From a virus, in IMG/VR virus record IMGVR_UViG_3300031578_000341, positions 1 to 23,412 of that record: a stretch of 23,412 bases of DNA. One strand, given 5' to 3'. Below are positions 11,444 through 23,412 of the stretch, piece by piece; position 1 is the first letter of the stretch, and each line of letters opens with the position of its first letter. Below the pieces are notes generated by a model, which did no database searches, had not been told where the DNA came from, and saw nothing but the letters and a program-made list of their open reading frames with translations. The position numbers and the translations under genes were made by a program.

Positions 11444-12571
11444 AAAGGCATCGTTTTAAAGAATCTGGTTGAAACGAAAGGCTCAAGGGCGGTATCGAGG
11501 CTCTTGGGCGACCTCCTGAGGGAGGGCAAGGTTCAGCCGGACGACTTCTCGGTGCAGGAGTTATGGGAAGCGCTGGTTGGCAGAATGAGCAAAACTCTGC
11601 CCACCGCTTACCGCAAGTCCGGATTTGTGGACGTAGCGGAGGCGGCTGTGGACACCACGGCCTTCGCAGACATCATGGGTCAAATCCTGATGTCGAGAGC
11701 CATGAACACCTACGCCGGGCAGGGTTATATCGGGGATAGGCTCGTCGATACCATTCGTACCACCAAGTTGGCCGAAAGGGCTCCCGGCTTCACGCTGCAG
11801 AACGACGTGGCCGAGGTAGACGAGGGTATGCCTTACCCCGAAAGCGGAATGGGCGACCAGTACGTGTCGTTCCTCTCAGGCAAGAAACGCGGCGTCCTCC
11901 TATCCATCACGGAAGAGGCGATTTTCCGGGACGAGACCGGATGGCTGTTGCGCTCAGCTGGGGAAGTCGGCGACTACGTGAGGGCGGATAAGGAAGGCCG
12001 CATAATCAACGTGGTTACCGGTACGACCAACGCTTACCGGATCAACGGTACGAACACGGCTCTCTACAGCGCGACCGCCGCAAGCGCCGGTGGGCACGGC
12101 AATCAGACCGCCGCAAATGCGCTCGTCGATTGGACCGACATCGATGTGTGTTTGCAGCTTATCGCTCTGCAGCGGAGAGTGGACCTGACGACCCCGGTTA
12201 GCATCGTGCCGACTCAGATGCTAGTGCCTTACGCTCTGTTTGCGAAGGCTTCCATGATCCTGAACTCGACCGCGATCACCGATGTCAACGCGACGACCAC
12301 GCCGCGATATCATCGTGAGAATCCGTTCCTGAACGCGTTCGAGCTGCTTACGAGCGTGAGGTTGGACGCGATCCTGGCTACCACGTGGTATCTGATGAAC
12401 GGTCCGAAGGCGTTTGTCTACCGTGAGCACTGGCCGTTCCAGGCTTTCCGCCGGGATCGAAACACAGAGGATGGCTTCAAGGCGGACATCGTTGCTCAGT
12501 TCAAGTTCCGTGAATGGGGGACTGCGGAGGTCATCGATCACAGGTGGACGTACCAATGTCCCGGAGCGTAA
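11441..12571 (+). CDS. Major capsid protein, HK97 fold
   Basis: This 376-aa protein forms the icosahedral shell. It uses a TTG start behind a very strong ribosome site. The N-terminal 50 residues are helical, as for an N-arm. The body contains the VDTTAFADIMGQILMSRAMN helix near residues 66-85, the ESGMGDQYVSFLSGKKRGVL stretch near 137-156, the ITEEAIFRDET segment near 158-168, and a C-terminal half with VSIVPTQMLVPYALFAKA and GPKAFVYREHWPFQAFRR. These are typical of the Mu-like/HK97-fold capsid proteins of phages with separate protease-scaffold genes. Position after decoration and before connector genes agrees. No maturation cleavage site can be read with confidence. Confidence 0.83.
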   Translation: MKGIVLKNLVETKGSRAVSRLLGDLLREGKVQPDDFSVQELWEALVGRMSKTLPTAYRKSGFVDVAEAAVDTTAFADIMGQILMSRAMNTYAGQGYIGDRLVDTIRTTKLAERAPGFTLQNDVAEVDEGMPYPESGMGDQYVSFLSGKKRGVLLSITEEAIFRDETGWLLRSAGEVGDYVRADKEGRIINVVTGTTNAYRINGTNTALYSATAASAGGHGNQTAANALVDWTDIDVCLQLIALQRRVDLTTPVSIVPTQMLVPYALFAKASMILNSTAITDVNATTTPRYHRENPFLNAFELLTSVRLDAILATTWYLMNGPKAFVYREHWPFQAFRRDRNTEDGFKADIVAQFKFREWGTAEVIDHRWTYQCPGA

Positions 12572-12583
12572 AAGGACGTACTG

Positions 12584-12763
12584 ATGCCATTCTACTACTA
12601 CAGGAAGGGCAAGAACGGCAAGACCGATCGGGTCGAACTCACGACTCCGACCGAGATGCTGCTCCTTGACATCCTGTTGGAGGAGAGGCGCATCGGTGAG
12701 GCGTTACGCAAACTGTCGGGGGTCCCGTCCGAGCAGGTCGGGGCTCCCGGCATTTCGGTTTAG
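12584..12763 (+). CDS. Small protein after the capsid gene, 59 aa
   Basis: ATG at 12584 after AAAGGACGTACTG (AAAGGA spaced about seven bases), ending TAG at 12761-12763. The protein starts MPFYYYRKGKNGKTDRVELT, with an aromatic and basic N-terminus, then an amphipathic helix (TEMLLLDILLEERRIGEAL) and a short tail. It fills the otherwise empty gap between capsid and connector genes. Small proteins here are often neck or capsid accessory proteins. No family is recognised and no function is claimed. Confidence 0.65.
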   Translation: MPFYYYRKGKNGKTDRVELTTPTEMLLLDILLEERRIGEALRKLSGVPSEQVGAPGISV

Positions 12764-12772
12764 GTGAGTGGC

Positions 12773-13003
12773 ATGGCGACATACCCAACGGAAGCCGAGT
12801 TGCAGGCGCGCAGAGCGGCGATAGAGGCGACGTTACTTGATATGGCCGTAAACCCCAAGCCTAGCTATCAAGTGGACGATAGGCGGATTGAATGGAATTC
12901 GTACGCGCGGGAGTTGCGGCTGCAGTTGCGCGACCTCAACCAAGCTATAGCCGCGCTCCCGGCCTTCGTCGAGACCCGATTCGACGACCCGACTGGATTA
13001 TAG
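12773..13003 (+). CDS. Small head-tail connector-type protein, 76 aa (DUF6148-like)
   Basis: The ATG at 12773 has AGGTGA five bases before it; a GTG at 12764 in the same frame is an alternative giving 79 aa. The protein is a helical hairpin: EAELQARRAAIEATLLDMAV, then YQVDDRRIEWNSYARELR and LRDLNQAIAAL. That layout resembles the small phage proteins of the DUF6148/gpW-like kind encoded just after the capsid gene, where they join the portal ring to the tail. It is followed six bases later by the next connector gene. Confidence 0.65.
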   Translation: MATYPTEAELQARRAAIEATLLDMAVNPKPSYQVDDRRIEWNSYARELRLQLRDLNQAIAALPAFVETRFDDPTGL

Positions 13004-13009
13004 GATTGA

Positions 13010-13402
13010 ATGATGGCTGGCGTAGTGGACCATTTCAAGACCGACTTGGACTTTATGTTCAATGAGCAGGCCGTGTCCGTAACGTACAGACAGAAGGAGA
13101 CTGCGGGCAGCAGCTTTACTGCCAGTACGGGCGTCATCGTTCGAGCATTCGAGGATATTGCATTGAGCGCTATTCGGGTTCGGCTGAACGTTCGAGAGGC
13201 GGAGGCTTCCGGGGGCATCGCGCAGGTGGGCGATTGCCGATTCTCGTTTCAGGCCGATGAATTGCTCGCCGGTTTTGTTGAGGGCCAGACCGAGCCCAAG
13301 GCCGAGGATAGGATTGTTGACGGTGCTGAGACCTTCCACGTTATTGGGCATATCTTGTCTTCTGATGAGAACGTCGCGAAGGTCTATTGCAGGAGAGAGT
13401 GA
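13010..13402 (+). CDS. Head-tail joining protein, 130 aa
   Basis: Double ATG at 13010 and 13013, preceded by TAGGATTGA. The sequence is mostly beta (QAVSVTYRQKETAGSSFTAS, then IRVRLNVREAEASGG, VGDCRFSFQADELL, EDRIVDGAETFHVIG). That is the pattern of small stopper or head-completion proteins, which plug or extend the portal channel and accept the tail. It sits between the DUF6148-like gene and the gp10-like gene, the usual place for this component. Assignment is from position and fold pattern, not a clear signature. Confidence 0.6.
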   Translation: MMAGVVDHFKTDLDFMFNEQAVSVTYRQKETAGSSFTASTGVIVRAFEDIALSAIRVRLNVREAEASGGIAQVGDCRFSFQADELLAGFVEGQTEPKAEDRIVDGAETFHVIGHILSSDENVAKVYCRRE

Positions 13403-13405
13403 CGA

Positions 13406-13948
13406 ATGCGGGCAAGCTCGTTTCTAGCCAACGTCAACCGACTGGCGACTCAGGAGTCCAGAGAATACGCCGAACTCTGCGTGCTCAACTTCGAACATAT
13501 GCGGTTCAGCAGGCAGATACGCAAGCTGATGAAGGTAGTGCCCGAAAAGGAAGTGGACTTGATAAAGGCGTTGGGCGTCAAGGTCATTCAAGGTGTTGTG
13601 CCTAGGACACCGGTAAGGACCGGGCGCGCGCGCGCGGGATGGTGGCGGGCGGCTACGGCCTTCGCGTTCAAGGCTCCAGAGATGGTTATTTCGGCCATGA
13701 CCGGGGGTGACCGAACCGGGGTCGCGGAAGGTATGGAGATGGGCGAGTACAGTGAGAATTTTGTAGGCCCGAACAAGTACATCGAGATAATCAACGCAGT
13801 CTGGTACATCGTCTTGTTGGAGTTCGGGCGCAGCAGCCAAGCCCCGGACGGTATGCTCCGGGTGACGATGCGCGAGATACGCGCGGACATCCAATACTTC
13901 TTACGCGGTCGTGGCGGGTTTTTTGCCGACGCTGTGAGGTCAACGTGA
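13406..13948 (+). CDS. Neck/tail completion protein, HK97 gp10-like
   Basis: This 180-aa protein follows AGGAGAGAG, and its stop overlaps the next start (GTGA). The HK97 gp10-like signature is clear: a helical N-terminus, then VVPRTPVRTGRARAGWWRA near residues 64-82, and the later AVWYIVLLEFGRSSQAPDGM near 131-150 followed by LRVTMREIRADIQYF. Members of this family bridge the connector and the tail terminator. The local GCGCGCGCGC run at 13625 encodes GRARAG and may be a slippage-prone spot. Confidence 0.85.
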   Translation: MRASSFLANVNRLATQESREYAELCVLNFEHMRFSRQIRKLMKVVPEKEVDLIKALGVKVIQGVVPRTPVRTGRARAGWWRAATAFAFKAPEMVISAMTGGDRTGVAEGMEMGEYSENFVGPNKYIEIINAVWYIVLLEFGRSSQAPDGMLRVTMREIRADIQYFLRGRGGFFADAVRST

Positions 13949-15473: not shown

Positions 15474-15664
15474 CGGCACCGGAGAAGCCAGGTTTGAAAC
15501 ATACGGGGCGCACGATGTTGTACAGTAAGTATGCGGTTTGCGAGAGGTTCGGGATGACGCCGAGCGAGTTCAACCAGTTAGGCCGAGTCGAGCAGGTGAG
15601 GCTATTAGCGTATGAGGGGCTACGTCGCGATGAGGCGTGGGCCGCCTTCCATAAGGAATCCTGA
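15470..15664 (+). CDS. Tail assembly chaperone T-part, 64 aa, expressed by -1 frameshift
   Basis: The frame contains an ATG at 15470 overlapping the upstream stop, but no ribosome site at a useful distance. The natural route is frameshifting at 15452-15458, adding these residues to the upstream chaperone. The sequence (MLYSKYAVCERFGMTPSEFN, then GRVEQVRLLAYEGLRRDEAW) resembles the short helical T segment, which contacts tube subunits, with the typical F-G-x-x-P-S-E-x-x-x-L motif. It ends one base into the tape measure start (TGATG). Confidence 0.75.
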   Translation: MTAPEKPGLKHTGRTMLYSKYAVCERFGMTPSEFNQLGRVEQVRLLAYEGLRRDEAWAAFHKES

Positions 15665-17991
15665 TGTTACTTGAGCGGCTAGTGGCTAGAATCGAGGGCG
15701 TGGACACCAAGTTCCAGCGCGCGATGCGCGGGGTGGAGACGGGGACCGCGCGCTCGGCGTCCAGGGTTAAGCGTCTGTGGCTAGGAGTAGGTCTAGCCAT
15801 CGGCTTGGCGGTTGCCGCTGTCGTTATTTCCATAACCAGCATGGCCGCCCAGTATGAATACGAGATGCGGCAAGTCTGGACGTTGACGGATCAGACGGCG
15901 GAGGAGTTCGAGGGTTTGTCCGCCAGCGTCCTTGCAGCCGGGGCCGCAATGGGGCAGGCCGCTAACACGATGGCCAAGGCTACTTACCAAGCCGTATCCG
16001 GTAGCATCGAGTGGGAGCGGGCTACCAATTTCGTGACCTTGTCGGCTCAAGTGGCGCTGGCAGGCGCGACCGACGCCTTTACCGCCACTAACCTGCTCGT
16101 GCAGATCACGAATGCGTACAAGGAATCGTCCCTAGACGCCCACGAAGCCGCGCAAATTCTGTTCACGACGGTGAAGTACGGCGTAACCACCATTGAGCAA
16201 CTGGCTCCTACCTTGGGCCGCGTGGCATCCATGGCGGCCACCGCATCGATAGATTTCAGGGACCTAGGCGCGTGGATTGCGGCCACAACCTCCGTCATCG
16301 GCGAGACCGGAATAGCCATCACGGGTACGCGCGCCATGATTGCTGGAATGATCGACCCCACGAAAGAACAGGCCGAAGCCGCGCACGCGCTTGGTATCGA
16401 TTTCGGGCTGGCTGCGTTAGAGGCGCGCGGCCTATACGGCGTCATGAGGGACGTGCGCGAAGCTACATTCGGGAACGTTGAATCCCTCGTGAAATTGTTC
16501 CCGCAAATCCGCGCCCTGACGGCTGCCGCTGCGGGTTTACGGGGCGGATGGTTCCGATACCTTGAGACGTTGGAAGCCATGACCGATGAGACCAACGAGT
16601 TCGCAGAAGCCTCCGAGAAGATGTACGGTTCCACTAAGTTCATATGGAGCCGTATGGGTGCAAACATCAAGGCAGTAGGTATAGCGATTGGAACTTCGGC
16701 CAAGGAACTCACTGAGCCGTTCGCTAATTTAGTCTCGTGGCTGATAGAAACTAGAATTACATCGAGGTATGCCACCGAGGCGATGAGCAAGGCGCGGGAG
16801 CAGGTTAAGGAGTTCCGTCTAACCGCCGAGGAAACTGAGTATTGGACGGGCCGCCTCTTCGAGGCCGTGTACAAGAAGCCGGAAGCGGCCATGACGTTTC
16901 TGGACACGATCATATCGTCTTGGATGTCGGGTGCGGAAGCAGCTAGGCTCATGGGTCCGATCCTCGAGGAGATGTACGTCAAGCACCGTGATCTCATGGA
17001 GGAAGCGGCGGAGCGCGACATCCAGCTTACGGATACGGTCGCGGATGCCAAACGGACAGCCGAGAAAGCAGCCGACACCGCGCGACAGGCGGCCTTCGAC
17101 GAGCACCTTGACTGGCTAGAAGGCGCTTTCGATCGTGAGACTGGCCTCTTAAACGACGCGCTCAAGGATCGCAAGAAGCTCTACGAACAATACATCGACG
17201 AGATACAGAAACTCCATAAGGAACAGGCGCTCAGGGCGGAAACGGCGGAGGAGGAGATATTCGGGCTCCGTCTAGCACGCATGGGTGAAGGGGAACAGCT
17301 AGGCGCACTCACGACGTTTGCGGAAGACTTTTTTGCGCGCGCTGAAAAAGCGATGACCGTTGGGAGCTACGAGGAGGCGCGCCGACTCTTCGAGAAAGCT
17401 ATCGATTATTACACCAGAGCCGCGCAGGACGCGCCCGACCTCGACTTTGAAGGCATCGTAACCGACATCGAGAACATCCACCAGAGAATTAGTGAGGCTT
17501 TCGACTTGCAGGCGGAAGTGGCACTTGAATCAGCCAACGAGCAGGTGAATGCGATCGCCAAAATAGAAGCCGAGCTTGATGCGCTATATAAGAGGGCGCG
17601 CGAGGGCGCTGATATTATAGTTGAGGATAAGTGGGCGATGCAGGCCATTCAGGAAGTGCAAGCTGAACTCGCTAAGTTGACGGATAAGCGGATACGGATA
17701 ACGGTTGAAAGAGTATGGAATCCCCCGCTTGGTTATGATCCGAGCACGGTTGATCCGGGTTGGGGCGGATTTTACCCAAGTTCGATTCCGAGGGAATCGG
17801 AGCCGAGCGGCGTTCAATTGCGACCCGCCTTCGAAGATCAGTCGCCGGGCGCGAGTCTTGGCAAGGCCGAGTTTAATATGTACTTCAATGTGCCGGTTAC
17901 TAGAGAAACGGTCCGCGATGTGGTTATACCGGAAATGCAAGCGGCGGCGAAGCGCGGGCTGCTCACGCCGACGTTGGGGGGGCGGGGATGA
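15664..17991 (+). CDS. Tail tape measure protein, 775 aa
   Basis: Sets tail length and helps DNA entry into the host. The long protein starts MLLERLVARIEGVDTKFQRA, with a clear membrane segment near residues 38-60 (LWLGVGLAIGLAVAAVVISI). There follow Ala/Thr-rich helices typical of TP901-type tape measures (ITNAYKESSLDAHEAAQILF, then a TRAMIAGMIDPTKEQAEAAH stretch). A charged coiled coil lies near 480-530. Near 560-590 a TPR-like helix pair (GSYEEARRLFEKAIDYYTRA) is unusual. At about 0.15 nm per residue a tail near 115 nm is predicted. The stop overlaps the next start (ATGA). Confidence 0.88.
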   Translation: MLLERLVARIEGVDTKFQRAMRGVETGTARSASRVKRLWLGVGLAIGLAVAAVVISITSMAAQYEYEMRQVWTLTDQTAEEFEGLSASVLAAGAAMGQAANTMAKATYQAVSGSIEWERATNFVTLSAQVALAGATDAFTATNLLVQITNAYKESSLDAHEAAQILFTTVKYGVTTIEQLAPTLGRVASMAATASIDFRDLGAWIAATTSVIGETGIAITGTRAMIAGMIDPTKEQAEAAHALGIDFGLAALEARGLYGVMRDVREATFGNVESLVKLFPQIRALTAAAAGLRGGWFRYLETLEAMTDETNEFAEASEKMYGSTKFIWSRMGANIKAVGIAIGTSAKELTEPFANLVSWLIETRITSRYATEAMSKAREQVKEFRLTAEETEYWTGRLFEAVYKKPEAAMTFLDTIISSWMSGAEAARLMGPILEEMYVKHRDLMEEAAERDIQLTDTVADAKRTAEKAADTARQAAFDEHLDWLEGAFDRETGLLNDALKDRKKLYEQYIDEIQKLHKEQALRAETAEEEIFGLRLARMGEGEQLGALTTFAEDFFARAEKAMTVGSYEEARRLFEKAIDYYTRAAQDAPDLDFEGIVTDIENIHQRISEAFDLQAEVALESANEQVNAIAKIEAELDALYKRAREGADIIVEDKWAMQAIQEVQAELAKLTDKRIRITVERVWNPPLGYDPSTVDPGWGGFYPSSIPRESEPSGVQLRPAFEDQSPGASLGKAEFNMYFNVPVTRETVRDVVIPEMQAAAKRGLLTPTLGGRG

Positions 17992-18416
17992 GCGTAAAAT
18001 TTCAGTTGGGCGGCACGGTCTTCTACCTTCAAAACCCGGACCTCGCTAACGCCCCTGAGAGAAGACGTATGCAGGTTATCCGCCAGGGGGCCAGCGGCTG
18101 GTACTTCGTATACGATAAGGGCCATAACACCGTGATTTGGACGCTTCGATGGAGCAACTTGCGCGAGAGTGAAAAAGTTGCTTTGGATGATTTCTTTCTG
18201 AGCACGGTGCAGGGCGCTCTTAACATCTTTTCTTTCACCGACTGGAGGGGGAATCTTAAACAGGTCCAGTTCCTGCAGTCATCCATCGAGTTTACCGAGG
18301 TGGCCGATGCGCGTGTGGGGGCCGCAACAACTTTCTCTAGCGGCGGCGTGGATTACCCCACTACGACCAGGGAAAAGGGCGTGTGGGCGACGGAGATCAA
18401 ACTGCGGATAATTTAG
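17988..18416 (+). CDS. Minor/distal tail protein, 142 aa (lambda M-like position)
   Basis: The ATG overlaps the tape measure stop. The protein is beta-rich: KFQLGGTVFYLQNPD at the start, then VIWTLRWSNLRESEKVALDD followed by FFLSTVQGALNIFSFTDWRG and VQFLQSSIEFTEVAD. The Trp-x-Leu-x-Trp...F-F...G...F-x-F-x-D-x-x-G layout is that of small minor tail or distal-tail (Dit N-domain-like) proteins, where a ring of this protein joins the tube to the tip. It lies directly after the tape measure and before the large tip protein, as in lambda-like tails. Confidence 0.7.
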   Translation: MSVKFQLGGTVFYLQNPDLANAPERRRMQVIRQGASGWYFVYDKGHNTVIWTLRWSNLRESEKVALDDFFLSTVQGALNIFSFTDWRGNLKQVQFLQSSIEFTEVADARVGAATTFSSGGVDYPTTTREKGVWATEIKLRII

Positions 18417-18431
18417 GGGCTGTATTAGGCC

Positions 18432-21400
18432 ATGAAGACGTTATCAGCCGCAATGAAATTAGCGCGGGCTCGCCTGGGCACGTACCCGTGGAACGTCGTG
18501 CGATTTGATTGGGGCGGGGCCATTGGCAACAAGTGGTACAGCGATATACCTAGCGGGGACGCCAGCGGCAGTTCGGCGACGAACCTTGCCGTGCGGGTTG
18601 TGGATTGGGGGGCGTATACTCTGCCGCAGGCCGAGGGCCGTACGGCGGCAGCCGTCGCAGATATTACAATCACTTTGGACGACCGTGACGGCGTGATTCG
18701 TGGTTATATGCGGTCAGTCGGTCATACTCGAATCCCGGCTACGGTCTATCAGGTATTCTCACCTGCTGGCGCTGCGGACATGATCATTCTCTTGAAGGGC
18801 GTATCCGTTGCCCCATTTCACTGGCGCGAGATGGACGGCACTATCGCCATTGACATCACGGAGCGTGCGGGCCAATTCAATCAAGTGGTCGGCACCGTGG
18901 TCACCAGCGAAGATTGGCCTTATTTAGGCGCTGACCAATCCGCGATGTTGCCTATAGTCTTCGGGCGTGTTGATCGGCGCAAAGCCTTCTTGCTTGAGGG
19001 GACCGTAGAGACCTCTCTCTCTGCACCCCTTCAACAGGATGGTTGGGACCTTTATGTGAATGACAGTGAGGACTTCCCGCAAAACACCACCATTAAGTTA
19101 TGGCTTGACGGTGAAGTTATCCGGGGCCGTTTTAAAGATGGGAACAAATTCTGGACAGAATATCGTGGCGACAATTCGTATCAGGGCTTCGCCACCAGCA
19201 CCGCACAGCACCTACTTGAGGTGCGCTGCACGAATCTCCCGCCACCAATAAGTCAGTATATAGGTTTGCCGATCAGCATCCAGCGGGGCTTTGGGGCCTT
19301 TGCCGAAATTTACGAGCGGCAGATTGTGGGGGTCGATGCGAGTATCTCGGCGCTTTACTTCGATAGGGTCTGCTCTTATTATGATCCAACGGGGCGGATT
19401 GTTGATTGGTACGTGGTGGGCGGCGCGCCTATCCACATTGACGGCGAAGTACGCGAGCACCAGAAAGGCACGCGCGTCATACTAAAGCGTGACGCATATA
19501 CTTGGGTTGTAAACGACCAGCCAAGCAAAAGCGTGGTCGCCGTCGAGGCCTCGATTACGAACATAGCGAGGCGTAATTACTGGGGGCCGGACGACTTATT
19601 GGTTAGCGCGGCCCCTACTTCTGGTTATGCGGCAATTCCGCCGACCATGCGGACTATAAATTTATCCAATGGCGGCCTTATTGCGGGCAGGAATCTCACC
19701 ACCATTACGATGACGGTATTGCCCACGATGGTCGGGCCAGAGTTCGAGTTTACCGGCGACGACCTGTACGTTACGCTAAACGGCTGCTATGACGCAGGCG
19801 GCGCTACCGTTAAAAGTCCCCCCGATGTCATCCGCGAATTAGGGTATAGATACTTGGGCATGGAGGTTGGCGATTTTGACCAAGCGAGCTTTGAGGACGT
19901 AAAGGATCAGCTTACGTGGTGCCACTTCGGCTTCATGCTGCAGGATCAATATCAGGGCCTTGACCTGTTCGCCGATCTGGCCATGCAGGCAAGGTGCATG
20001 GTCACGTGGGAGGAGGGGAAAGCAAGGCTCCGTTATTTACGGGAAGGCCCTTACGGGGTGTGTGCAGCAACTGGCGGTGAGCAGCGCGAAGCTTGGAGCT
20101 TAGAAATACACCACGAGAGTCCGGAGGATGTCATCACCGAGATCGTCGCTAAATTTACGCGCAAGGCGAATAAGAGCGCCCACCACGTAGTACGGAGTGT
20201 GGGCGCAATGGCCATCTATGGTCGTAGGGTATTAAACTTGGATTTGTGGGCGCATAACCAAATTCAGACAGTTAGACCCGTAGCCGATTTCTGGTTGGAG
20301 CGCCTATCTCATGCCCATGAAAGAGGGCGCGCTAAGACCTTTCTTCGGCTGCTTGAAGTCGAAAGAGGCGACGTTCTGGAGGTTCGGTGGACGCCTGATT
20401 TCGTGACTCTTCACGGCGAGGTTATGAGTGTGCATCATCAGTTGGGGAATGCACCTGAGGATCGCATGGACAACGTAACGCTCGAATTCCGGCTGCCGCG
20501 TTGGGGCGGCTGCGAGAGCGGATGCGAAATGCCGTGCGAAGTGGGTACTGAGATGATGTATGATAAAGCTCTGGCTGGGTGCGAATTGGCTTGTACTTAC
20601 CATTGCCAGTCAACGTGCGAGGAAGCCTGTGAGATCACGTGCGTATCGGGCTACGAATTATCGATGGTCAGGAATAAGGAAGACTGGTTGGAGGGGTGCG
20701 CCTCCGCGTGCCAAGCCAACTGCACGACCACGTGTGTTGCGACTTGTCAAGTCGCCTGTGAAACCGCCTGTGCTTCGGGTTGTGAGGTCTATTGCGAAAC
20801 TACTTGCGAGTCGCATTGTGAAGTTTATTGCGAGACTGGCTGCGAAACGGAGTGTGAGTCGAGTTGTGAGACGGCGTGTCAGGCGGCTTGCCAAAGCGAG
20901 TGCGAGTCGGGCTGCGAACTTGGTTGCGAGACTGGCTGCGAAACAGACTGCGAATCGGGCTGTGAAACGGAATGCGAATTGGGCTGCGAAGTCTACTGTC
21001 AGACGGGCTGCGAATCAAGTTGCGAAGCTGGCTGCGAGACTGGCTGCGAATCAGGATGCGAGATAACGTGCCAGACCACTTGCGAGGCCGGATGTGAGAC
21101 CAGTTGTGAAACGGGGTGTGAGGTCACGTGCGAGACGGGATGTGAGGTTAGTTGCGAAACCGGATGTGAGGCCGCGTGCGAGAGCGGGTGCGAGGTAAGT
21201 TGCGAAGTCTCTTGTACGGCGGGCGGTTCCGAATGCTGCTACCTGCCGTGTTTCTGCTGGCACGACGATCTCGGCGATCCGTACCTTGAGGCTTGCACAT
21301 ATAATCCGCTCTGCGCGCCTTGGACGACGGGGAATTGCACCTATTCTCAGTACGGAGGCTGCGAGCCCGGATGCATCGACTACAATGATCTATTACCTTG

Positions 21401-21437
21401 GTCGTACTGGTACGAATCGAACAATTGCGCCGTATAA
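18432..21437 (+). CDS. Tail-tip/hub protein with C-terminal Cys-rich tetrad array, 1001 aa
   Basis: Position after the distal tail gene makes this the tail hub or tip. The ATG at 18432 has only weak ribosome signals (TAGGGG, TTAGG). Residues 1-693 are beta-rich with mixed domains and just a few scattered Cys; I find no sure family, though DITITLDDRDGVIRGYM (76-92) and MLPIVFGRVDRRKA look like tail-hub strands. From Cys694 to the end, 63 of 308 residues are Cys, spaced mainly four apart: 694-702 (3), 717-737 (6), then 756-928 (44 without interruption). A Trp/Tyr-rich end with 10 Cys closes the protein (SECCYLPCFCWHDDLGDPY to NNCAV). The tetrads are mostly C-E-x-x with x Thr, Ser, Val, Gly or Tyr. 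The array may form a rod or solenoid spike, modified by the radical SAM enzyme downstream; metal binding or disulfides are alternatives. Confidence 0.75.
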   Translation: MKTLSAAMKLARARLGTYPWNVVRFDWGGAIGNKWYSDIPSGDASGSSATNLAVRVVDWGAYTLPQAEGRTAAAVADITITLDDRDGVIRGYMRSVGHTRIPATVYQVFSPAGAADMIILLKGVSVAPFHWREMDGTIAIDITERAGQFNQVVGTVVTSEDWPYLGADQSAMLPIVFGRVDRRKAFLLEGTVETSLSAPLQQDGWDLYVNDSEDFPQNTTIKLWLDGEVIRGRFKDGNKFWTEYRGDNSYQGFATSTAQHLLEVRCTNLPPPISQYIGLPISIQRGFGAFAEIYERQIVGVDASISALYFDRVCSYYDPTGRIVDWYVVGGAPIHIDGEVREHQKGTRVILKRDAYTWVVNDQPSKSVVAVEASITNIARRNYWGPDDLLVSAAPTSGYAAIPPTMRTINLSNGGLIAGRNLTTITMTVLPTMVGPEFEFTGDDLYVTLNGCYDAGGATVKSPPDVIRELGYRYLGMEVGDFDQASFEDVKDQLTWCHFGFMLQDQYQGLDLFADLAMQARCMVTWEEGKARLRYLREGPYGVCAATGGEQREAWSLEIHHESPEDVITEIVAKFTRKANKSAHHVVRSVGAMAIYGRRVLNLDLWAHNQIQTVRPVADFWLERLSHAHERGRAKTFLRLLEVERGDVLEVRWTPDFVTLHGEVMSVHHQLGNAPEDRMDNVTLEFRLPRWGGCESGCEMPCEVGTEMMYDKALAGCELACTYHCQSTCEEACEITCVSGYELSMVRNKEDWLEGCASACQANCTTTCVATCQVACETACASGCEVYCETTCESHCEVYCETGCETECESSCETACQAACQSECESGCELGCETGCETDCESGCETECELGCEVYCQTGCESSCEAGCETGCESGCEITCQTTCEAGCETSCETGCEVTCETGCEVSCETGCEAACESGCEVSCEVSCTAGGSECCYLPCFCWHDDLGDPYLEACTYNPLCAPWTTGNCTYSQYGGCEPGCIDYNDLLPWSYWYESNNCAV
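20697..21215 (+). repeat. Coding tandem array: 44 Cys at exact 4-residue spacing
   Basis: Residues 756-928 of the tail-tip protein. The spacing is exact: 43 intervals of 12 bases from the TGC at 20697 to the TGT at 21213. Glu follows Cys in 33 of 44 cases, Gln in six. Both Cys codons and both Glu codons are mixed throughout. Short exact repeats such as GAGACTGGCTGCGAA occur near 20835, 20929 and 21031. Codon diversity argues against recent slippage and for selection on the protein pattern. Confidence 0.95.
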
Positions 21438-21443
21438 AGGAGC

Positions 21444-21944
21444 ATGATGGTGGCTGTGAAGATTCCAGCGGACGTGCGAGAGCTTTTCAGGCAGTGCCCG
21501 TTCCGCGAAGTCCGGGCAGTGATCCCGGAGGGCACTGCCATCTTGAGGTCAGGCGAAGTTTCTAAGTGCTTTGCCATCGACAAGGAACTCGGATTTCCTG
21601 CCGGGTCCGTTGGCGTCCACGAAAGCACGTGCGCGGCCTGCGTTTTATCCGGGGAGCCAGGATCGCTGGAGAATGAGGCGTTCAAGGTGGATATAAGCAG
21701 CGCCGCCATCGGGCGGATCGGTTCCGGTACGTGCCCCACAGGAACGAGCCGGGATGTGATTATAAGCAAGGCTCTCGCAGTGGGCGCGGGCAAGGAGCGC
21801 CTGCGGCTTGCACTTATCCGTGGAGTCAGCACGGTCGAAAGACTAAAGGCCGAAGGCAGAATCGATCCGGTGAATCCATTGACGGAAGAGGAGGCCATGC
21901 GCTTGGCCACAGAGTATGATCTACTGGAAGAGGTTGCGCCATGA
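21444..21944 (+). CDS. Unknown 166-aa protein between the Cys-rich tip and the maturase
   Basis: The start lies six bases after the tip gene's stop behind TAAAGGAG, and its own stop overlaps the next gene (ATGA), so it is made together with its neighbours. It begins MMVAVKIPADVRELFRQCPF. Cys18, Cys42, Cys63, Cys66 and Cys97 are present, with a CxxC in HESTCAACVLSGEPGS, suggesting a metal or Cys-handling site. The C-terminal 60 residues are helical (SKALAVGAGKERLRLALIRG, then LTEEEAMRLATEYDLLEEVA). I do not recognise a family. Context suggests a tail-tip partner, chaperone or modification cofactor, but that is inference only. Confidence 0.75.
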   Translation: MMVAVKIPADVRELFRQCPFREVRAVIPEGTAILRSGEVSKCFAIDKELGFPAGSVGVHESTCAACVLSGEPGSLENEAFKVDISSAAIGRIGSGTCPTGTSRDVIISKALAVGAGKERLRLALIRGVSTVERLKAEGRIDPVNPLTEEEAMRLATEYDLLEEVAP

Positions 21945-22210
21945 GCGTCAAGGAGGATTTCGCAAAGCAGTTGCGATTAGCGGCGAAGATAGGCCGGGCA
22001 TCGGGCAATCTGTCCGCAGTGCCGGAGGAAGTACGGAAGCAGCGCGAGGAAGCCTGCCGCGAGTGCTCCGCAAACGAAGTAGTGGATGGACGACCGCGCT
22101 GCTCCTATTGCGGCTGCGACGTGGAAGCACGACTGTCAAAGGCCGATGCCCTTTGCGCGAAGAATCTATGGCCCGCACTGACTGAGGAAATGTTAGGATT
22201 GCAGGATTAG
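21941..22210 (+). CDS. Small zinc-ribbon-like protein, 89 aa (DUF6171-like)
   Basis: The ATG overlaps the upstream stop. Cys39 and Cys42 (EACREC), then Cys54, Cys57 and Cys59 (PRCSYCGCDVEAR), then Cys72 near the end (LCAKNLWPAL) form a compact Zn-binding pattern. It resembles the small phage family with C-x2-C...C-x2-C-x-C...C-x5-W (DUF6171-like), whose function is unknown to me. The N-terminal 38 residues are helical and basic (KEDFAKQLRLAAKIGRASG). It ends ten bases before the radical SAM gene. It could assist maturation or be a coincidental tail-module gene. Confidence 0.7.
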   Translation: MSVKEDFAKQLRLAAKIGRASGNLSAVPEEVRKQREEACRECSANEVVDGRPRCSYCGCDVEARLSKADALCAKNLWPALTEEMLGLQD

Positions 22211-22220
22211 GGGGGATAGG

Positions 22221-23412
22221 ATGCTTAGAATACTGAACGCGGGCGCGGCACCTACAACCGGGACACTGCCGGGCGCAGCCGAGCCTCAAGTAACTTTCTT
22301 TGCCGTGCTTGGGGATCACTTCATATACGACGCTAATAGTATGGCCCTGGCGCATGTGGAGCCGGGGTTGTGGCGGACGTTGCGCGATAACGCGAGCGCG
22401 GGCGAGGAGTTCGGCGGTATATTCTGGAGCCGTAACAAGCCGCAATTTCATTCATACCCCCCAAGAACCCAAGCCCTCGTACTGAATGTGACCCATAACT
22501 GTAATCTCGCGTGCCGGTACTGCTTCGTCCGTAATATAGACGATTACCGGCGTGCGCGATTGCCTGAGATGACGTACGAGACTGCCATTGAAAGCATTCA
22601 GCATTTTTTCCCGCGCGGTAATAAGGTCCGTATTGATGTGGGGTTTTTTGGCGGGGAGCCCTTTTTACGGTGGAACCTCATGAAGCGCGTGGTCGAATGG
22701 GTCGAGAACGAGGCGAAGCAGCGCGGCGTCGAAAGGAAATTTTACGTAACCACCAATGCTACGCTCGTCGATGAAGAGAGGGCTAAATGGTTAGCGCTGC
22801 ATGAATTCAGTCCAACAGTTAGCCTGGACGGCAACGAGGTCACGCACAACGCCATGCGGCCTAGCCGAAACCCCAAACAAAATAGCTGGCTGATGACGAT
22901 GAAGGGGCTGGAACAGTTGGCGGCTGTCGGTCTCGGATTACGGGTAACGCTGCGTAGCACCTTTACAGGTGAGGGCGTCGATCTGACTGAGCGGTTGCGC
23001 GATTTGAACACGCTCGTCTGGCGGGGTATGGGCGGCGCTGTAGCCGTCGAGCCCTCTTCCCTCTCCGAAGCTAGCTGCATTGACGCTAGCGCCACCAAAG
23101 GACTCGTTTTCGATCCTAATAATATCCGAGCGCAACTTGGGTTCCAATACGAGCACGCGGCGGAGTGGTACATCGAGCAAATCAACGACGGTCGTAGGCC
23201 GCACTTCCATCACTTCGACATCTTTATCCGCCGACTCCTATGGTGCGAGCGCAATCCTTCGGAATGCGGGGCCGGTAAAGGGTATATATGTATAAATCCG
23301 GAAGGCCACGTCCACGCTTGCCACCGAGAAACGCGATCCCGGATAGGTGCATTACCTTATGGGATTGATGAGGAATTGCGGACGCCGTGGCTGGACAACC
23401 GGCTGTACGCGC
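22221..23412 (+). CDS. Radical SAM/SPASM peptide maturase, SCIFF/ranthipeptide type (3' end cut)
   Basis: 397 codons are visible, and the gene runs off the right edge. GGGGGATAGG precedes the ATG. An N-terminal part (VTFFAVLGDHFIYDANSMAL, residues 24-43) looks like the short beta domain before CteB-like enzymes, often peptide-recognising. The radical SAM core has Cys94-x3-Cys98-x2-Cys101 (VTHNCNLACRYCFV), FFGGEP at 142-147, TTNA at 177-180, SLDG at 201-204 and VEPSS near 276-280. The SPASM part shows SECGAGKGYICINPEGHVHACHRE (split here by convention as SECGAGKGYIC, then INPEGHVHACHRE) with Cys349, Cys357 and Cys367, the CGAG-x2-Y...P-x-G...CH motif of SCIFF maturases. Related enzymes (CteB, PapB, QhpD) make thioethers from Cys to Thr, Asp or Glu. 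Substrate here is inferred: the Cys/Glu array 0.8 kb upstream. Confidence 0.88.
   Translation, partial: MLRILNAGAAPTTGTLPGAAEPQVTFFAVLGDHFIYDANSMALAHVEPGLWRTLRDNASAGEEFGGIFWSRNKPQFHSYPPRTQALVLNVTHNCNLACRYCFVRNIDDYRRARLPEMTYETAIESIQHFFPRGNKVRIDVGFFGGEPFLRWNLMKRVVEWVENEAKQRGVERKFYVTTNATLVDEERAKWLALHEFSPTVSLDGNEVTHNAMRPSRNPKQNSWLMTMKGLEQLAAVGLGLRVTLRSTFTGEGVDLTERLRDLNTLVWRGMGGAVAVEPSSLSEASCIDASATKGLVFDPNNIRAQLGFQYEHAAEWYIEQINDGRRPHFHHFDIFIRRLLWCERNPSECGAGKGYICINPEGHVHACHRETRSRIGALPYGIDEELRTPWLDNRLYA

Follow-up and report, generated by a model that had tools for sequence, protein, structure and literature searches.

A cysteine array in a phage tail-tip protein is the probable substrate of a phage-encoded radical SAM/SPASM enzyme

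Introduction

The radical S-adenosylmethionine (SAM)/SPASM enzymes CteB, PapB and QhpD make thioethers at non-alpha carbons; QhpD joins Cys to Glu through C-gamma, and the SCIFF bond is reported as Cys32-Thr37, a spacing of five (PMC8326336). PapB accepts Glu, tolerates Cys-Xn-Asp at n=0-6 and forms both in-line and nested rings (PMC9413430). The present study concerns a viral record of 23,412 bp (IMG/VR record IMGVR_UViG_3300031578_000341; this whole stretch is called the window), in which a tail-tip protein carrying a cysteine array is followed in the same operon by an enzyme of this class. Our analysis suggests that the tip protein is probably the substrate of the enzyme and that the predicted products are Cys(i)-Glu/Gln(i+5) thioethers.

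The SCIFF pair CteA/CteB resembles the phage pair in the modelled fold of the maturase (the best PDB match), in the SPASM cysteines and in a predicted acceptor five residues downstream of the donor, as in the bond cited above. However, the phage substrate would be a virion protein of 1001 amino acids with about 40 donors and not a short peptide, its acceptor would be Glu or Gln in place of Thr, and the enzyme is phage-encoded. PapA/PapB (freyrasin) shares repeated Cys-Xn-acidic motifs, and the acceptance of Glu, of several spacings and of in-line or nested rings by PapB adds to the likeness. PapA uses CX3D, whereas the pattern found here is CX4[E/Q], Asp and Asn are rare (1.5%) and the acceptor adjoins the following donor. 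QhpD modifies a protein subunit, that of quinohemoprotein amine dehydrogenase, and not a peptide product, and its Cys-Glu thioether is formed at C-gamma. The cross-links of the QhpD system are few and lie in a metabolic enzyme; the system has no tandem array and is non-viral. Two further families, CXXX-repeat (TIGR04115) and Cys-every-fifth (NF038107), have names that imply a pairing of SPASM enzymes with regular Cys repeats, but they match the window enzyme only weakly (1e-11 and 1e-12, respectively). Precursors of ribosomally synthesized and post-translationally modified peptides (RiPPs) are short and made of leader and core, the leader being removed; the candidate substrate here is a 1001-aa tail protein, and inspection by eye of the operon and of the region behind it in L002, a 38.4-kb IMG/VR record identical to the window over 11,192 bp, revealed no protease or exporter gene.

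Amino acid patterns of the cysteine array

The tail-tip open reading frame (ORF) of 1001 aa (18432-21437, plus strand) consists of a gpJ-like body, the Cys array and a distal segment. A total of 69 Cys were found in the protein, 63 of them within residues 694-999. The CX4[E/Q] array occupies residues 694-928 (20511..21215, plus strand). Its main run, residues 756-928, has 44 Cys at an exact spacing of four (the strict every-fourth run at 20697-21215) and is preceded by two shorter Cys runs at residues 694-702 and 717-737. Glu or Gln occurs at +1 of 39 of the 44 main-run Cys. The C-terminal distal segment (residues 929-1001; 21216..21434, plus strand) contains 10 further Cys and is alignable and largely conserved in the sister phage L146.

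Comparison of the main run with the sister phages L146 and L013, whose tip bodies show 64-66% identity to that of the window, revealed that 44 of 44 Cys and nearly all Glu/Gln are retained. Synonymous codon changes number 64-65 in these comparisons, and of the 40-42 amino-acid replacements almost all fall on the two free positions. Selection thus acts on the array, since Cys and Glu/Gln are kept amid synonymous changes and drift at the free positions.

The pairing of donor and acceptor was analysed on 2,224 interior units of non-redundant arrays. Glu or Gln follows Cys in 90% of the interior units and Asp or Asn in 1.5%. At the isolated first Cys of a chain, Glu or Gln occurs at +1 in only 10 of 58 cases (17%). 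The isolated last Cys has Glu or Gln at +5 in 29 of 40 cases, against 20 of 240 at the remaining offsets; several further ones have it at +6. Examples from the window are C702-EVGT-E707 and C737-VSGY-E742 as run ends and C756-ASAC as a run start. From the run-start and run-end statistics it follows that each Cys is probably joined to the Glu or Gln behind the next Cys, normally at i+5.

The initial annotation had counted 63 Cys in the last 308 residues, which the residue count confirmed, and Glu or Gln at or near +1 in 40 of 43 intervals, which lies close to the 39 of 44 found strictly at +1. It had also described the motif as Cys followed by Glu. The involvement of Glu/Gln stands, but Cys-Glu adjacency as the motif was rejected on the run-end statistics, and CX4[E/Q] fits better.

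Linkage of the array with the enzyme

A DNA pattern of five C[EQ]xx units was scanned over viral contigs, and the record counts given here are among the matches listed. Genuine arrays (varied free positions, long ORFs) were split from simple repeats by us before the enzyme search; the array records are mostly genome fragments. A PapB-type enzyme was found in 19 of the 23 genuine-array IMG/VR records (18 at E<1e-10 and one at 1e-6), at a distance of 3 kb or less from the array in 17 records and within about 7 kb of it in the other two. The four array records without the enzyme are 7.9-17 kb long; the 17-kb one ends inside the array and the other three are below 9 kb. Random viral contigs had the enzyme in 0 of 31 cases (Fisher p=5e-11 versus the array records). 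The 50 simple-repeat control records gave one strong enzyme match, G024, and one weak match at 2e-4. G024 (L003/L216) holds a genuine short CQxx array at the C-terminus of a 209-aa protein, with four PapB-like enzymes consecutively alongside.

Three (L226, L272, L296) of six bacterial or archaeal array loci that showed no enzyme in an 8-kb view have one just outside it on the same strand, the contig numbers of L226 and L296 being assumed to match their accessions. A homologue of the tip body that has no array (L326, a 21.9-kb record) has no such enzyme either. It is very likely, in our judgement, that enzyme and array work together. The initial annotation had taken the array as the substrate of the enzyme and had expected a SPASM gene near CxxxC arrays beyond chance. 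The counts above (19 of 23 listed versus 0 of 31) agree with the expectation, and the substrate reading is supported by the linkage across records, by the tracking of repeat type with enzyme clade and by the enzyme-free L326. Equal arrays without an enzyme, named there as contrary evidence, were sought and found only in the short records of 7.9-17 kb.

Repeat types and enzyme clades

A reverse search was made with an enzyme alignment, and the best 80 of 195 viral-contig relatives were kept. Most of the loci of these relatives have a Cys-rich repeat ORF nearby on the same strand. In the clade closest to the window enzyme most loci carry C[EQ] arrays, and remoter phage enzymes adjoin other Cys repeats; the types seen were C[EQ]xx, CTCNCNY, CNNxCYG, CxxC and others, and the repeats of related phages may carry Ser/Thr or Asn after Cys. 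On an enzyme tree of 77 rows the repeat-type labels need 6 changes, while 500 shuffles needed a mean of 15.5 and never fewer than 13. Enzyme clade clearly predicts repeat type, although part of the agreement comes from the common ancestry of enzyme and array.

The enzyme of Campylobacter phage CP220 groups by sequence with the CTCNCNY clade. As predicted from this grouping, CP220 encodes a protein, gp140 (L375:8933-10537), with six or more CTCNCNY/CTCDCNY repeats, and one of its radical SAM genes, gp136, is found 2.2 kb downstream of gp140. Enzyme and repeat genes of the CP220 type are each present in 15 Campylobacter phage records. The occurrence of 11-12 radical SAM genes in Campylobacter phages was described in 2010 as highly unusual, and a metabolic role was guessed (PMC2853527).

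In the clostridial prophage-type loci L203, L212 and L258 the array is on an immunoglobulin (Ig)/Hoc-like virion protein adjoining the enzyme. Faecalibacterium phage FP_Mushu and Phage nd4 have array-less homologues of the Ig/Hoc-like protein; a reverse transcriptase gene adjoins, and an apparent lectin-type domain stands where the array would be (the lectin domain and the nd4 reverse transcriptase were recognised by eye). The lectin-like domain and reverse transcriptase in the array's place are a hint that the array may do receptor-contact work. The Cys/Glu tail-tip system of the initial annotation holds as to its linkage, but not as to its restriction to tail tips and Glu, since several virion proteins and other repeat types are involved.

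Further loci with related features were seen. In homologues of an array-bearing Ig/Hoc-like virion protein at L372:3251-6272 and L373:2053-4894, the place of array and maturase is apparently taken by a diversity-generating reverse transcriptase with its target domain. In L118:3857-5476, L117, L055 and L155 the arrays are on P2 gpI-like tail proteins, i.e. fused to unrelated tail proteins. Erwinia phage Caitlin (L370:3128-4169) has three tandem paralogous small ORFs with a common N-terminus and a Cys-rich C-terminus; the first two carry C[S/T]xx, and the ORFs adjoin the radical SAM genes gp171 and gp172 and are partly unannotated or annotated on the opposite strand. In gut phage Phass-1 (L369:6935-9671, genetic code 15) a 174-aa protein with a Cys-rich end is encoded after two radical SAM-like genes. 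Two intein-like inserts split the SPASM enzyme of L171/L145 (G007, a phage record of 172 kb), each of them at a Cys motif of an auxiliary cluster. Cys arrays of the C[EQ] type occur on the contigs L240 and L285 of Bathyarchaeota metagenome-assembled genomes, and the enzyme follows in L240. Array and adjacent enzyme are also present in isolates of Clostridium tepidiprofundi (L261), Fervidicella metallireducens (L237) and Ezakiella peruensis (L258), which are possible laboratory sources.

The radical SAM/SPASM enzyme

The CteB/PapB/QhpD-like maturase gene lies at 22221..23412 on the plus strand. The window holds the first 397 of its 509 codons; the remainder is in L002, which supplies the full 509-aa enzyme. 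The CX3CX2C radical SAM cluster motif (C94, C98, C101; 22500..22523, plus strand) is invariant in an alignment of 15 phage enzymes, as are the seven auxiliary-cluster cysteines of the SPASM domain, C349, C367, C401, C404, C410, C414 and C433. The radical SAM core family PF04055 scored over its cut-off. The best family models were PapB (9e-41), SCIFF maturase (3e-39) and QhpD (6e-38), none of them over its curated cut-off, and the class named in the initial annotation, SCIFF/PapB/QhpD type, was right. An AlphaFold model of the enzyme (predicted local distance difference test score, pLDDT, 83) has CteB (5why/5wgg) as its best PDB match at E 2e-24, with a template modelling (TM) score of 0.81 by target length, the comparison covering the model as a whole. 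Six array or Cys-repeat proteins gave 0 matches to the NCBIfam target families.

Proposed mechanism and alternatives

In the proposed mechanism the enzyme, encoded three genes downstream of the tip gene, would act on the tip protein before or during virion assembly, in what may be a low-oxygen host. It would abstract hydrogen from a side-chain carbon of a Glu or Gln, and this carbon, most likely gamma as in the Cys-Glu bond of QhpD, would bond to the sulphur of the Cys five positions before it. With each acceptor directly behind the next donor Cys, an interlocking chain of thioether rings would be formed, some 40 in this phage if modification is complete. The distal end of the tail would thereby become a rigid rod, proof against redox changes, that may serve host-surface contact or penetration.

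Several observations weigh against this mechanism. The spacing is not absolute, as units of five residues ('CELGGCE') put the acceptor at i+6 and units of three residues at i+4, and the units of an array are not independent observations, so that the p-values are optimistic. The CteA bond is also reported as Cys32-Thr34 in a second study (PMC8326336), and Gln as an acceptor for this enzyme class is unreported in the cited literature. In the tip protein, neither a leader peptide nor a distinct recognition sequence was found. The enzyme scores far under all curated equivalog cut-offs (TIGR03974, 163.5 of 425 bits; NF047865, 161 of 340; TIGR03906, 160 of 453), and therefore the exact reaction is not readable from the family name.

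By one alternative the enzyme would modify the array through another reaction or pairing: a sactionine (alpha-carbon) thioether, a bond from Cys to a neighbouring free position, Cys-Glu at i+1 or i-3, epimerisation or Cys oxidation. The SPASM class as a whole performs all of these reactions, several sactipeptide maturase and anaerobic sulfatase-maturating enzyme (anSME) models match the enzyme weakly, and repeats of related phages carry Ser/Thr or Asn behind Cys. However, the statistics of the first and last Cys of a run point to a downstream acceptor at i+5 and away from i+1 and i-3, and the closest families and the fold belong to enzymes that form non-alpha thioethers; we consider this alternative unlikely.

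A Cys at every fourth position could also stack or bind metal, so that the array would be a disulfide-stacked or metal-binding rod and the job of the radical SAM enzyme an unrelated one. Such a rod offers no evident reason for the i+5 acceptor rule, and the co-occurrence of enzyme and array in many unrelated phages, the agreement of repeat type with enzyme clade and the array-less, enzyme-free L326 make this explanation quite improbable. Simple-repeat CE/CQ stretches do exist in viral contigs, which would agree with a functionless low-complexity expansion or an assembly artefact, but genuine arrays are diverse at the free positions and lie within long ORFs. Moreover, Cys and Glu/Gln are retained while codons and other positions drift, and L146 and L013 are separate contigs, so that an artefact is hardly credible.

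Gene layout of the tail region

A terminase GpA, a PF05136 lambda-family portal and a tape measure are encoded upstream, and a Mu F-like protein and a capsid are also recognisable. The phage is therefore tailed and lambda-like, and probably a siphophage. The tip gene follows the tape measure gene in the order found at the tail end of lambda-type phages. The tail tape measure protein (775 aa; 15664..17991, plus strand) matches Pfam PF10145 at 5e-20, TIGR01760 at 1e-21 and PHROG_991 at 1e-34. In the interval between tape measure and tip lies a 142-aa protein (17988..18416, plus strand), by its position a likely tail component; it is 69% conserved at the equal position in L146 and L013. Profile library searches gave no family match for it.

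The tip body (residues 1-690; 18432..20501, plus strand) has no Pfam match. A six-member profile of tip bodies matches the lambda tip attachment protein J (8iyk, E=4e-4; 9e7m, E=3e-4) over about 170 profile positions, and the tip homologue L151 matches PHROG_31, 'central tail fiber J', at 6e-4. By these profile matches the tip body is a remote homologue of lambda gpJ. Body and genome position behind the tape measure gene are common to both proteins; the window protein differs in that its body ends in a Cys array, and the similarity is remote (E=4e-4). The AlphaFold model of the tip body (pLDDT 46) was too poor for use. BLAST with the tip protein and array sequences in isolate phages found no match, for which the low-complexity filter is the likely cause.

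Between tip and enzyme lie a 166-aa protein (21444..21944, plus strand), which no family match in profile library searches assigned to a function and which has 70% identity to the protein at the same place in L146, and an 89-aa zinc-ribbon-like protein (21941..22210, plus strand) with a CxxC...CxxC pattern. The latter matches PHROG_13558, of unknown function, at 4e-6 and is 88% identical to its L146 counterpart. Among the relatives examined, only the closest yielded counterparts of the two proteins. The gaps between the four genes are 6, -4 and 10 bp (a 4-bp overlap at 21941), which bears out the initial description of a tight operon ending in a radical SAM/SPASM gene.

Downstream of the enzyme, L002 encodes a small protein, a GT9 glycosyltransferase and a methyltransferase and, farther on, one protein that combines uracil-DNA glycosylase (UDG) and DNA polymerase A domains. 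The order tip, 166-aa protein, 89-aa protein, enzyme, GT9, methyltransferase is conserved in L146 at 52-88% identity. In L002 the GT9 heptosyltransferase-like gene occupies 11729-12760 and the methyltransferase gene 12702-13475, and GT9 stands beside the maturase in several relatives. GT9 as a general part of the system was rejected and kept as an accessory, as only 5 of the 23 array records have it, in each case no more than about 2 kb from the enzyme. GT9 may put sugar onto Ser/Thr of the array; together with the methyltransferase it could further modify either the array or the sugars on the host surface.

Significance of the findings

The proposed chemistry is of a known kind, and what would be new is its use on tandem arrays of virion proteins by phage-encoded enzymes, although priority is not proven. 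The initial annotation had not seen such a system described, and likewise no description of tandem arrays in virion proteins modified by phage enzymes was found in the open-access literature, subscription papers and preprints being outside the search. We lean towards the broader view that many phage lineages build appendages from overlapping thioether rings by means of their own radical SAM enzymes. Such appendages would be stapled, redox-proof rods of a general type, with several repeat alphabets (CX4[E/Q], CTCNCNY, CNNxCYG, CxxC, C[S/T]xx), each paired with its own clade of enzymes, and Gln would be a new acceptor.

If this is true, RiPP-type chemistry would double as a structural device of viruses, in which an encoded repeat becomes a covalent ladder without reducible disulfides. 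The same class would take in the radical SAM genes that have long been unexplained in Campylobacter and jumbo phages, and the presence of radical SAM genes, once guessed to be metabolic, would be accounted for in many phages, including cultured Campylobacter and Erwinia phages. These phages would also be a source of many new enzymes that act on long repeats in large proteins, with a use in the making of stapled proteins.

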